Shown here: piece by piece, positions 12,590 to 33,624 of the stretch | How positions within the stretch are numbered: the first letter of the stretch is position 1 | Layout: each line of letters begins with the position of its first letter | IMG/VR virus record: IMGVR_UViG_3300031673_000103 | Coordinates: 1-46,160 of that record | DNA length: 46,160 nucleotides | Source: a virus | Direction: 5' to 3' (one strand) | Made by a program: the position numbers and the translations under genes | The notes under the pieces: model-generated | The model's input: the letters and a program-made list of their open reading frames with translations, nothing else | Database searches by the model: none | What the model was told of the DNA's origin: nothing

Positions 12590-13534
12590 TTACACCTCGT
12601 TACCCCAAGATGACCACCCGTTGCGAGCATTGCGGGCGAAAAGTTCCACATAGGGACCGGGGTACATAGCCTCGACGAGCTCGTAAGCCAGTTCTGGTTT
12701 TCGACTATGCACGGGGCCTCGATCTGCCTCAAAACAACTGTCGGGCCTGGTCATTGGTTGTGGTGTTTCTTCTTTTGCGCCAATGATCAACAGTTCGTGC
12801 TTTGATTTGAGCCACCAGCCCTTACCACGCCCTTTGTCCTTAACCCAAGCCATGTTTGATTTGTACTCAAATCCCCAAGCCTCAATGACTTGTAGCGCTT
12901 CAGGTAAGAGGGGATTGGTTGCCCACATAAACAGGGCTGTGGTTTCTGCTGCCAATTCTCTAATTGGCAAGCTGCAAATATCCTCAACTGCCATCGTGGG
13001 ATACTGCGACTCTGCGGCCTCATCAAAGCCACTGTTGTTGTACTGCCAGGGAGGATCGGCGTAAATCACGGAGAACTTGCCTAGAGGTAGGGGGGGGGCC
13101 TCTCTCATAAGAGAAACACGGATCTGGCGGCGTAGTTCGCTCCGGCTCCATTGATTTTCTTCTGCGAGTTTGAGCCAGTGGTCTTGCTCATCTGCAACCA
13201 TTGGTGCAACTGTCTTGTGGTGCTCGAAACTTAATTTATCTCGCCGGCGAGATAATTCAATTTGCGCAGCCACCCACTTATCGTTAGCAAGGGTTGAGAC
13301 TTTGAAGTCTGTCAGCTCTTCAACTTCTTTCCAGATTTCACCCCACTTTTCATCACAATAATTAAGCCAATCCCCAATCCACCAATGGACTGCCTTTTCC
13401 ATCTGGGCCAGCTTGCCACCTACTGCGCACCAATCATCAAAGCTCAAGCCTTCTGGCAAATCTAGGCCAGTCGGCGTCCATCCTCCTGGTAAGCCAAGCT
13501 GGACGTTGGGTCGTGCAATTACTAGATTGCTCAT
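12590..13534 (-). CDS. MT-A70-family adenine N6-methyltransferase with an N-terminal LmbU-like region
   Basis: 314 residues from the ATG at 13534 (AGGAG upstream); the frame continues open to 13678 but that part is the structured RNA region. Residues ~20-140 (GLDLPEGLSFDDW, VHWWIGDWLNYCDEKWGE, SRRRDKLSFEHHKTVAPM, SELRRQIR) match a domain often fused to such methylases and related to LmbU. The catalytic domain starts with FSVIYADPPWQY; DPPW at 160-163 is the MT-A70 motif. It then has ALFMWATNPLLPEAL and a C-terminal EAMYPGPYVELFAR. A C9 tract codes APPLP (146-150) in the linker between domains. Probable role: adenine methylation of phage DNA. Confidence 0.85.
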   Translation of the reverse strand: MSNLVIARPNVQLGLPGGWTPTGLDLPEGLSFDDWCAVGGKLAQMEKAVHWWIGDWLNYCDEKWGEIWKEVEELTDFKVSTLANDKWVAAQIELSRRRDKLSFEHHKTVAPMVADEQDHWLKLAEENQWSRSELRRQIRVSLMREAPPLPLGKFSVIYADPPWQYNNSGFDEAAESQYPTMAVEDICSLPIRELAAETTALFMWATNPLLPEALQVIEAWGFEYKSNMAWVKDKGRGKGWWLKSKHELLIIGAKEETPQPMTRPDSCFEADRGPVHSRKPELAYELVEAMYPGPYVELFARNARNGWSSWGNEV

Positions 13535-13574: not shown

Positions 13575-13735
13575 AAAAAAGCCTCTCGAACTCCTGCCAG
13601 ACGACGGACGGACGACGACAGGTTTTGTAGTGATGCGCTGGGCAAGCGCACCGCCGCCATCGTCTGGCAGGAAGCCAAGAGGCTTCGCGTACACCTGTCG
13701 TCTAATTGTCCCGTTCGTGGGTGCCCCTCCCACGT
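13575..13735 (-). ncRNA. Candidate structured small RNA, pseudoknot-capable, ending in an intrinsic terminator
   Basis: A transcript from the promoter at 13741-13769 would begin near 13735. It starts with a hairpin (CGTGGG/CCCACG, 13716-13734). GACGACAGGT (13693-13702) can pair perfectly with ACCTGTCGTC (13614-13623). The main stem pairs GCCTCT and CCTGCCAGACGA (13660-13686 side) with TCGTCTGGCAGG and AGAGGC (13581-13604), followed at once by TTTTTT (13575-13580). A small TGCGCT/AGCGCA hairpin (13634-13650) lies inside. The 10-bp helix joins sequence outside the main stem to sequence inside it, so the two form a pseudoknot. The open frames across it show no known protein. It could also be a leader or attenuator for the methylase gene. 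No match to a known RNA class is recognised. Confidence 0.65.
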
Positions 13736-13740
13736 TTTCT

Positions 13741-13769
13741 ATTGTACCAGAATAGGGCACAAAAGTCAA
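13741..13769 (-). promoter_or_regulatory. Sigma70-type promoter for the candidate RNA
   Basis: On the minus strand TTGACT (13764-13769), 17 bases, TACAAT (13741-13746), with TGG directly before the -10 (extended -10). Start site expected near 13734-13735. Confidence 0.75.
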
Positions 13770-13801
13770 CCTCTTAGGGAACGTTTTGAGGTAAAAAAAC
13801 T

Positions 13802-14032
13802 CTACTCTACCCACTTGTAATTACCGCTGTTATTCACGCTCAATCTCGCTCCATCTTGGCGCACTGGCACTTTACCAATCATCCGCACATCTTGGCCTTT
13901 GACAGAGAAGCGCATCCCCGGCGACCAGTTGTCGTTTAAGACGCCAAAGGCAAGGTCAAGCATACTGAACGTTGCACTTGACGCAAATAAACCGGTCGGG
14001 TCGTGTGCCACGATGACGGAAAGCTCGCTCAT
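13802..14032 (-). CDS. Hypothetical phage protein
   Basis: 76 residues from an ATG with GAGGT upstream. Beta-rich with a short helix (LFASSATFSMLDLAFGVL). No Cys pairs, membrane segment or known motif. Followed by the 267-base structured gap before the MT-A70 gene. Confidence 0.5.
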   Translation of the reverse strand: MSELSVIVAHDPTGLFASSATFSMLDLAFGVLNDNWSPGMRFSVKGQDVRMIGKVPVRQDGARLSVNNSGNYKWVE

Positions 14033-17235: not shown

Positions 17236-17278
17236 TGCCTGCCTCTTTTGCTTGCCTCTTTAGAGAAACTCAGTCAAA

Positions 17279-17349
17279 GCCGCTCCCAGGTCTCGAACCT
17301 GGTTCTACTGATTACAGGTCAGTCGTTTTACCGGGTAAACTAAAGCGGC
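17279..17349 (-). tRNA. tRNA-Thr (anticodon TGT)
   Basis: On the minus strand: acceptor GCCGCTT / GAGCGGC, D arm GTTT-loop with GG-AAAC, anticodon stem ACTGA/TCAGT around CCTGTAA (anticodon TGT, reading ACA), T arm CCAGG TTCGAGA CCTGG. All four arms pair; the variable loop is 4 bases. CCA is not encoded. Position 33 is C where almost all tRNAs have T. The gene lies in the 141-base gap between the helicase and nuclease genes, with no promoter of its own visible, so it is probably cut from the operon transcript. Confidence 0.9.
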
Positions 17350-17376
17350 TCATAGGCGGCGAAAGCAAGCGCCTAT

Positions 17377-21572: not shown

Positions 21573-21601
21573 TTGCCTCCTGCTTTAGAATGTGGTATAC
21601 T
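21573..21601 (+). promoter_or_regulatory. Plus-strand sigma70-type promoter
   Basis: TTGCCT (21573-21578), 17 bases, TATACT (21596-21601) with TGG directly before the -10. It faces away from all genes here and leads into the terminator at 21620-21660, so it would drive a very short RNA. Confidence 0.6.
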
Positions 21602-21607
21602 GGGGAT

Positions 21608-21660
21608 TGTCCGCAGATGGCCCCTAGTCAGTTCCCCAACTGCCTGGGGGCTGTCTTTTT
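21608..21660 (+). ncRNA. Candidate ~52-base RNA from promoter to terminator
   Basis: From the expected start near 21608 the transcript reaches a nested stem: GCCCCTAG (21620-21627) with CTGGGGGC (21644-21651), and inside it CAGTT/AACTG around CCCC. TGTCTTTTT follows (21652-21660). This is a textbook rho-independent terminator, and no gene lies on this strand within 2.6 kb. The unit is antisense to the 5' leader of the 20838-21569 gene. Confidence 0.5.
21620..21660 (+). terminator. Rho-independent terminator
   Basis: 8-bp outer stem (one G-T pair) plus 5-bp inner stem, then T5. Details under the RNA entry at 21608. Confidence 0.75.
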
Positions 21661-21713
21661 GTGGAGGCTTCCGTTTACGTTGAACCCCTCGACTAAAATG
21701 CGGAAGCCTCCAC
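21661..21713. repeat. Perfect 13-bp inverted repeat with a 27-base loop
   Basis: GTGGAGGCTTCCG (21661-21673) and CGGAAGCCTCCAC (21701-21713). It starts directly after the T-run of the terminator. On the minus strand the loop holds GGGGTTCAACG, which resembles a T-arm loop. Function unknown: an RNA hairpin in the leftward operon or a protein site. Confidence 0.8.
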
Positions 21714-21782
21714 TATTCGCGTTAAATGTTCTTTATGCTTCCTCCTTTCCCCACCAGATTCTCTAAACTGGCGGGATTAAGG

Positions 21783-21878
21783 GGATGGGGTGGGACTCGA
21801 ACCCACTAGCAACACCAAGCTAGCGTCTGTTGCTTATCGCTGGCCCGGCTGCGTATCATCCAGCTACGCCGCCCATCC
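21783..21878 (-). ncRNA. tRNA-like RNA with aberrant anticodon region
   Basis: Minus strand, 96 bases. Acceptor GGATGGG/CCCATCC (7 bp) and T arm GTGGG TTCGAGT CCCAC are perfect, and a D arm GCGT/ACGC with AGCTGG in the loop is present. The 43 bases between D and T arms contain no 5-bp stem with a 7-base loop. Instead AGCAACA/TGTTGCT (7 bp, 13-base loop) stacks next to the T arm, after a 15-base insertion. So it is not a normal tRNA. Its 5' flank (21877-21892) matches that of the 32404-32521 RNA in 15 of 16 bases. A GC-rich hairpin follows the 3' end. Confidence 0.6.
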
Positions 21879-21885
21879 TTGATTG

Positions 21886-29897: not shown

Positions 29898-31274
29898 ATG
29901 ATGAGTAGTAACGGAGACATTAGGAATGCGCTTCTCAGGACATGGGCAGCGCGAATTGAGAAAAGCGCGAACGAGGGACTACTGACGGGGAAGCCTTGCC
30001 CGATTTTGTCTTGTCAACGGATTTGTGGACCACGTGCGGGCGCAATTGAACTAGACGCCGACCTGTATGCGGGCAAGCTGTTGCGGGTGCTATCTCGTAG
30101 TGATTGCGCGGCATTGCGGCATCTTGTACCGACAGAGTGGGAATTCACAGGAGAGCCACAGGCATTTATGCGCGGTAGGTGGTTGCGTGTTGAGGTTGGT
30201 TGGCCTGATGATTTAGCGGAAAACACCATTCGGCTGGGCCAGATCAACAAGCGGCCTGCAGGGGATGGGCGTTGGGCTATTGGCCTCGATGAACTTGGAC
30301 GCACTGTGGTTGGGTGGCTTTCTGACAAGACACCGCATATTCTGGTGAGCGGTACAACGGGCAGCGGTAAAAGCGTGGTTGTGCAGGGCATGGCCGTTCA
30401 GTTTGGTGCAGCGGGTGACGTTGATATGGTATTATGTGATGGGAAGGGCGGCGAATCGCTGCACAAGGTGGAGCGGTTGCCCGGCGTGTTGGGACCTTGC
30501 GCAGTGGAGGGGCCAGAGGTGCGCGGCGCACTGGGTTGGGCAGTGGCCGAGATGAAGCGACGGTACAACAGCGGCACAAATGGCTACAAGCGATTGGCGG
30601 TATTCGTTGACGAGTTCCAGACGTTCAACGAGGATGAGGTTATCGTTTCCCTATTGTCAAAGTTGACGGCCCAAGGGCGGGCGGCAAACGTCCACACAAT
30701 CTTGGCGACACAAAACCCACGTACTGACAGTTATGGCGATCCTACTATACCGCGTAACATCGTGGGCCGGATTGCTCTTTGTGTCACAGATTATGCCGCT
30801 TCCGCTGTGGCTGTGGGTGGGAACACGCCAAGGGCAGACAAGTTGCAAATGCAAGGCGATAGTTACTATGTGCGGCCTGGCGCGTGCTACCGTACTCAAG
30901 TGGCCTACGTAGATGAGCAAGAAATCACAGCGGGTATGGGGGATTCTCCCGACTGGCGTTTCACGCGCTGGCCTGAGTATGAACCGGAAGACATCGGCCA
31001 AGATGCGCCAGAGGATAATTGCCAGTTCCGTTATCGCGGCGATGAGCTGGCCGTAGCGTTGGTTGCCGCCACAATGGGGGAAGGTCGGAAATTATTTGAG
31101 GATCGGATGGAAGCAGCGGGCTTTGGCCGGCCTGGATACAACCGTCAGAAGGTGTTGCGCGGATTGGGCAAGAATGAAAATGACTGGCTCAACCAGAACA
31201 ACTACGTGGTATGCAAAAAATCTGAGTCGGTAGCAGATCCGCGCAATGTGCGAATTACGCCCGGTGTGTGGTAG
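29898..31274 (+). CDS. FtsK/SpoIIIE/TraB-like DNA translocase
   Basis: 458 residues. Walker A GTTGSGKS (152-159), Walker B LAVFVDEFQ (about 237-245) and the FtsK-family sensor ILATQNPR fix the ATPase domain. The N-terminal ~120 residues have no membrane helix, so the protein is a soluble hexameric motor, possibly docked by the membrane proteins of this module. The C-terminal ~90 residues (ELAVALVAATMGEGRKLFEDRMEAAGFGRPGYNRQKVLRGLGKNENDWLNQNNYVV) form a winged-helix-like DNA reader. TraB proteins with the same layout move double-stranded plasmid DNA between cells. A role in DNA packaging or prophage segregation is the alternative. Confidence 0.85.
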   Translation: MMSSNGDIRNALLRTWAARIEKSANEGLLTGKPCPILSCQRICGPRAGAIELDADLYAGKLLRVLSRSDCAALRHLVPTEWEFTGEPQAFMRGRWLRVEVGWPDDLAENTIRLGQINKRPAGDGRWAIGLDELGRTVVGWLSDKTPHILVSGTTGSGKSVVVQGMAVQFGAAGDVDMVLCDGKGGESLHKVERLPGVLGPCAVEGPEVRGALGWAVAEMKRRYNSGTNGYKRLAVFVDEFQTFNEDEVIVSLLSKLTAQGRAANVHTILATQNPRTDSYGDPTIPRNIVGRIALCVTDYAASAVAVGGNTPRADKLQMQGDSYYVRPGACYRTQVAYVDEQEITAGMGDSPDWRFTRWPEYEPEDIGQDAPEDNCQFRYRGDELAVALVAATMGEGRKLFEDRMEAAGFGRPGYNRQKVLRGLGKNENDWLNQNNYVVCKKSESVADPRNVRITPGVW

Positions 31275-31279
31275 AAGGT

Positions 31280-31370
31280 ACCTACCTACCCACCCGGGGT
31301 ATATGTCACCCAAAAAACAAGCGCGGGGCACGTTTTCTGAGTGACACAGGGTATAGGTGGGTAGGTAGGT
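31280..31370. repeat. Long interrupted palindrome with tandem ACCT repeats
   Basis: ACCTACCTACCCACC (31280-31294) and GGTGGGTAGGTAGGT (31356-31370) match perfectly; inner arms TGTCAC (31304-31309) and GTGACA (31341-31346) extend the pairing. It begins 6 bases after the translocase stop and ends before the ribosome site of the next gene. It could be a transcription-regulating RNA hairpin or the recognition site of the translocase, as TraB sites lie just after traB. Confidence 0.75.
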
Positions 31371-31384
31371 AGCGAGGTAAACGA

Positions 31385-32322: not shown

Positions 32323-32403
32323 GTTTTCCCCGCCAGTGCCTTGCAGGTCGTCTAGAACTTACCCCTGGTCAGCATTTTATATCCCGCTGGCGGTCCCGGA
32401 TGT

Positions 32404-32521
32404 GGAGATGGCGGGAATCGAACCCGCGTCCGCAAGGTTGCCGTGCGCGTCATCGGGGAACAGCTTGGTGACTTCTTCCCCTTAGCGCACGCTCGGCCCC
32501 ACGTCAAAGCCTGTCATCCCC
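32404..32521 (-). ncRNA. Mini tmRNA-like RNA without a tag reading frame
   Basis: Minus strand, 118 bases. 5' GGGGATG pairs with 3' CATCTCC (7 bp, one G-T). After it, GGCTTTGACGTGG matches the tmRNA D-analogue (GGATTCGACGGG in E. coli). The 3' end GGACGCGGGTTCGATTCCCGCCATCTCCA matches the conserved tmRNA T arm and end almost base for base. The middle folds as CGTGCGC/GCGCACG and GGGGAA/TTCCCC with a 15-base loop: one long arm, without pseudoknots. No tag ending in hydrophobic residues is seen, and normal tmRNAs are about 350 bases. It shares its 5' flank with the 21783-21878 RNA. Confidence 0.7.
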
Positions 32522-33533: not shown

Positions 33534-33591
33534 CTTGGGGGCCACCGAAGGATTCGAACCCTCGGCTTCCGGCGCCTGCCTAGCCCCCAAG
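33534..33591 (-). ncRNA. Mini tRNA-like hairpin: acceptor-type stem plus T arm
   Basis: Minus strand, 58 bases. Outer stem CTTGGGGGC/GCCCCCAAG (9 bp). Inside, GAGGG TTCGAAT CCTTC is a T arm with the standard GTTCGAATC core (one G-T pair). There is no D arm or anticodon arm. It is preceded at the 5' side by a second hairpin, AGAGAGGA/TCCTCTCT (33590-33616). It lies in the gap between two small genes. A third T-arm element in this phage, shorter than any tRNA. Confidence 0.55.
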
Positions 33592-33624
33592 AGAGGAGCA
33601 TTCTAGCATCCTCTCTAATGTCTG

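Follow-up and report, generated by a model that had tools for sequence, protein, structure and literature searches.

A non-coding leader with two mutually exclusive RNA folds was found ahead of an MT-A70-type adenine methylase gene in an IMG/VR virus record (46,160 nt, the whole of which is referred to here as the window). Sequence and energy calculation establish the parts of this element, its two exclusive folds, the length-dependent order of their stability and the gene order. We give roughly even credence to the view that the element is a cis-acting transcription attenuator, a riboswitch-type leader of the methylase operon.

Genomic setting and parts of the element

A long gene cluster on the minus strand spans about 24.2 to 4.5 kb in the window. 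The element occupies the non-coding stretch between a 76-aa reading frame and the methylase, which matches phrog_359 (E 6e-60). A bacterial host is assumed for the phage, since the window contains good sigma-70-type sites together with an FtsK-type gene and an RNA resembling tmRNA. The features are as follows.

17277-17350, minus strand: regular tRNA-Thr (UGU) gene, between the helicase and PD-(D/E)XK nuclease genes
13802-14032: 76-aa reading frame, which borders the non-coding stretch
13741-13769, minus strand: promoter, with -35 TTGACT (13769-13764), 17-nt spacer, -10 TACAAT (13746-13741) and extended -10 TGG
13716-13734, minus strand: 5' hairpin H1, 6 bp, loop AGGGGCA
13693-13702, minus strand: 5' strand of helix P1, GACGACAGGU, with extension GGAC at 13711-13708
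13671-13686, minus strand: hairpin X, GAAGCC-UCUU-GGCUUC, which overlaps the terminator 5' arm
13654-13670, minus strand: hairpin Y, CUGCCA-GACGA-UGGCGG, which overlaps the terminator 5' arm
13657-13685, minus strand: terminator 5' arm, made of bases shared with hairpins X and Y
13632-13652, minus strand: hairpin Z, GGUGCGCU-UGCCC-AGCGCAUC, present in both folds
13614-13623, minus strand: 3' strand of P1, ACCUGUCGUC, with extension GUCC at 13613-13610; closes the four-way junction
13579-13607, minus strand: terminator 3' arm
13575-13580, minus strand: U6 run, the putative termination point
12590-13534, minus strand: MT-A70-type adenine methylase gene, the first after the leader, ATG at 13534

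The promoter is of sigma-70 type and ranks 5th in the window when all sites on either strand are counted. The transcript expected from this promoter to the U6 run is about 160 nt long. Promoter scoring revealed no credible promoter between the terminator and the methylase gene (best score 3.9 vs 15.4 for the element), so that, short of read-through at the terminator, no transcription that could serve the methylase is evident nearby. The methylase ATG is situated 40 nt past the U run on the same strand. Attenuators and riboswitch leaders ordinarily have this layout, with a promoter and leader on the strand of the gene and an intrinsic terminator ahead of that gene. The Shine-Dalgarno spacing of the methylase is poor (GGAG, 14 nt), which counts against an attenuator.

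The original prediction described a near-consensus extended -10 promoter, a 5' hairpin, a perfect 10-bp helix and a closing T6 in front of an adenine methylase gene, and all of these were found in place. It also held that nothing in the stretch looks coding, and the codon composition of the element is indeed negative in all six frames. Nearly all the gene-like frames of the window have positive codon composition in their own frame. An 84-aa open frame across the element was considered as a gene and was set aside on its codon composition.

Two competing folds of the leader RNA

The RNA was folded at increasing lengths, and z-scores were calculated against dinucleotide shuffles. At all tested lengths from 122 to about 146 nt, the global optimum was H1 together with a nested four-way junction, in which P1 closes hairpins X, Y and Z (89 nt, z -6.1). 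The long hairpin becomes the optimum once the terminator 3' arm emerges. The terminator part alone (109 nt) showed a z-score of -8.7, while the full 164-nt unit reaches -79.8 kcal/mol (z -5.4) in the terminator fold vs -68.3 kcal/mol in the best P1-nested fold. At -66.4, the terminator hairpin is the most stable one before any of the 77 scored runs of at least five T, the next being at -50.6. According to this energy calculation, the antiterminator and terminator folds exclude each other, the antiterminator forming first and the terminator later.

The repeat that forms P1 is a perfect 10-bp match (13614-13623 / 13693-13702), and a leader-loop helix of at least 10 bp was obtained in 0.3% of shuffles. 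The GGGCA in the loop of H1 is complementary to the entire 5-nt loop of hairpin Z, and a match of at least 5 nt has P = 0.008 in random loops. This loop-loop complementarity suggests a tertiary contact between H1 and Z.

The main stem exists and is longer than the 12 + 6 bp originally described, the inverted repeat of the terminator being composed of 29-nt arms with 83% complementarity. The original prediction missed that the 5' arm of this stem forms two separate hairpins by itself. There, P1 was read as part of a pseudoknot, probably because the long stem was assumed to be always formed. The 10-bp helix is real and a pseudoknot is compatible with the sequence, but a linker of about 6-7 nt must then bridge the long stem; the helix is better read as closing a nested junction which competes with the terminator. 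Similarly, the claim of a discrete, strongly structured, non-coding unit of transcription is supported by the folding z-scores, the codon composition and the lack of an Rfam match, but 'stand-alone' is not the best reading of it.

The two arms of the terminator differ in their own folding. The 5' arm alone folds at -15.5 kcal/mol, which places it in the top 0.24% of 34-mers on the strand, whereas the value for the mirrored 3' arm is only -1.6 kcal/mol. When mirrored, the arms are identical at 24 of the 29 positions, and sequence comparison located four of the five differences at bases used by X or Y. Such an asymmetry is expected if the 5' arm must serve both folds, and on this comparison the competition looks selected.

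Proposed mechanism and rival explanations

In the proposed attenuator, RNA polymerase would start near 13735, and the first ~146 nt would fold into H1 and the four-way junction of P1, X, Y and Z, representing the antiterminated state. The emerging 3' arm could then invade Y and X to form the terminator with its 29-nt arms, and transcription would stop at U6. The invasion would be blocked by any signal stabilising the junction, whether a small molecule, a protein of the phage or host, or a further RNA, and transcription would then continue into the methylase and the genes that follow. We infer the start and stop of transcription at these sites, the regulated read-through and the existence of the signal. 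The greater stability of the terminator, by about 11 kcal/mol, counts against a switch, as the terminator might simply always form. Possible read-through from an upstream operon also counts against it, as this could supply the methylase without regulation.

We tentatively consider, as a possible and still doubtful extension, that the element represents a new orphan riboswitch or a new class of protein- or RNA-sensed attenuator in a bacterial phage. The junction with the H1 loop-loop contact would sense a signal and gate the N6-adenine methylase/replication operon through invasion of two junction arms by the terminator. If this is true, an RNA switch class outside Rfam sets the timing of the phage's DNA methylase and of the genes that follow it, and the element gives a testable handle on a cue sensed by the phage, for example the cofactor of methylation, a protein of the phage or a further RNA. 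The element is ordinary if it is merely a strong terminator or a small RNA.

The second of these cases would be a stand-alone trans-acting RNA of about 160 nt with its own terminator, in which the junction, or a pseudoknot made with the 10-bp helix, would bind a host or phage target. A strong promoter, a very strong terminator, a non-coding sequence and a stable fold all agree with such an RNA, as does a second promoter-terminator mini unit in the phage (21573-21660, plus strand). We nevertheless regard it as somewhat unlikely, since the element precedes, by only 40 nt and in the same orientation, a gene with no other credible promoter nearby. A trans-acting RNA also leaves the two competing hairpins in the terminator arm unexplained, and no target was identified. 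With this leader position, a cis-acting attenuator fits better than a stand-alone RNA.

It is unlikely that the element is only a plain strong terminator which ends the upstream operon beside a constitutive promoter, with the alternative fold being incidental. Its location 3' of a same-strand gene cluster would suit this function, and its hairpin, which no other T-run hairpin of the window matches in stability, is also the final optimum. However, the junction domain reaches a z-score of -6.1 without the terminator 3' arm, a 10-bp P1 is rare by chance (0.3%), and with the promoter placed ahead of the terminator the product would be limited to a short RNA and the methylase would be blocked. A role at the DNA level, as a palindrome (replication origin or site of protein binding) or as a small mobile element with inverted repeats, would account for the long inverted repeat, and another long palindrome exists in the genome (31271-31380), but this reading is very improbable: no GC-skew switch occurs near 13.6 kb, which rules out a replication origin, the window contains no second copy of the element, and a single strand carries the promoter, the U6 run and the alternative fold.

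Known RNA classes, relatives and other features of the window

The element matched no Rfam family at the gathering threshold, in agreement with the earlier statement that it resembles no recognised RNA. The relaxed search (E up to 10) returned only two sub-threshold microRNA models and no known riboswitch class. The covariance models of ZTP/ZMP, T-box, SAM, 6S RNA and all other Rfam classes did not identify it as a member.

The ZTP/ZMP (pfl) riboswitch is a transcriptional ON switch which acts by strand displacement, the terminator bases invading a hairpin of the sensor domain unless this domain is stabilised (PMC7337938; PMC10907184). The element is similar in that a 5' domain is predicted to form first and later bases would invade its hairpins to form an intrinsic terminator. 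It differs in having no Rfam match, in its four-way junction closed by a long helix, in a terminator which would consume two junction arms, and in preceding an adenine methylase instead of purine or one-carbon genes. As it resembles ZTP/ZMP in principle but matches no Rfam model, the element was filed in no class. With T-box and other terminator-antiterminator leaders it shares a mutually exclusive terminator and antiterminator in the 5' leader, but there is no Rfam match and no T-box motif was noticed by eye. The put RNA of phage HK022 is an antitermination RNA that acts on polymerase to pass later terminators. Likened by description only, both are phage RNAs of an early leader with two neighbouring hairpins (here X and Y), but the hairpins of the element belong to the terminator itself. 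Phage-encoded small RNAs are likewise non-coding and highly structured with their own promoter and terminator, whereas the element is bistable and placed as the leader of a same-strand gene.

To blastn, the element showed only chance-level matches among phages and plasmids, and its exact hairpin pattern was not found in viral contigs. The methylase led to relatives at 45 viral loci and 11 genome loci. Among them, the closest (L002, 63% identity over the catalytic half) is without the element, its methylase frame starting directly after another reading frame, and its record was the only match of an alignment of the methylase's neighbour. Single-sequence searches with the processivity-factor-like, primase, helicase and terminase proteins gave no relatives, and a terminase alignment gave 80 distant loci (best 49-51% identity). 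No copy of the element was found in 40 viral records drawn from the terminase-alignment loci and methylase matches. A single-sequence covariance model, which has low power, found nothing in 32 viral records and 2 genomes, and nothing in 199 genomes of the phylum of the Clostridia relative. The viral, phage, plasmid and genome searches thus yielded no homologue, and the records nearest to the window are possibly absent from the searched sets. As no homologue was found, there is no covariation support, and the case rests on the internal evidence of one sequence.

Other RNA-like features and a palindrome were also observed in the window. A tmRNA match in Rfam at 32400-32521 on the minus strand (69 bits, model 1-374) covers only 122 nt and shows an acceptor, a T-arm and one long helix, with no space for a tag reading frame. 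It was not called by standard ARAGORN, and a search of a 351-base piece by itself did not report it; it may be a tmRNA-like RNA that lacks the message part. A tRNA-like acceptor and T-arm without an anticodon arm (GGGGGCTAGG...GGGTTCGAATCC...GGCCCCCA) is situated at 33540-33592 on the minus strand. Another tRNA-like sequence at 21783-21880 on the minus strand (GGATGGG...GTTCGAGTCC...CCCATCC) has an abnormal anticodon region and was not called by standard ARAGORN. The mini unit at 21573-21660 on the plus strand is composed of a promoter (TTGCCT-17-TATACT, extended -10) followed directly by a strong hairpin and T5, giving a possible RNA of about 57 nt from the strand opposite to the operon, and a 14-bp hairpin at 21661-21714 adjoins it. 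The long two-tier palindrome at 31271-31380 (TACCTACCTACCCACC...GGTGGGTAGGTAGGTA) separates the FtsK-type gene from the next one and has no T run directly after it. With a z-score of about -7.3 it is the most extreme structural outlier in the window, and it is possibly a DNA site.
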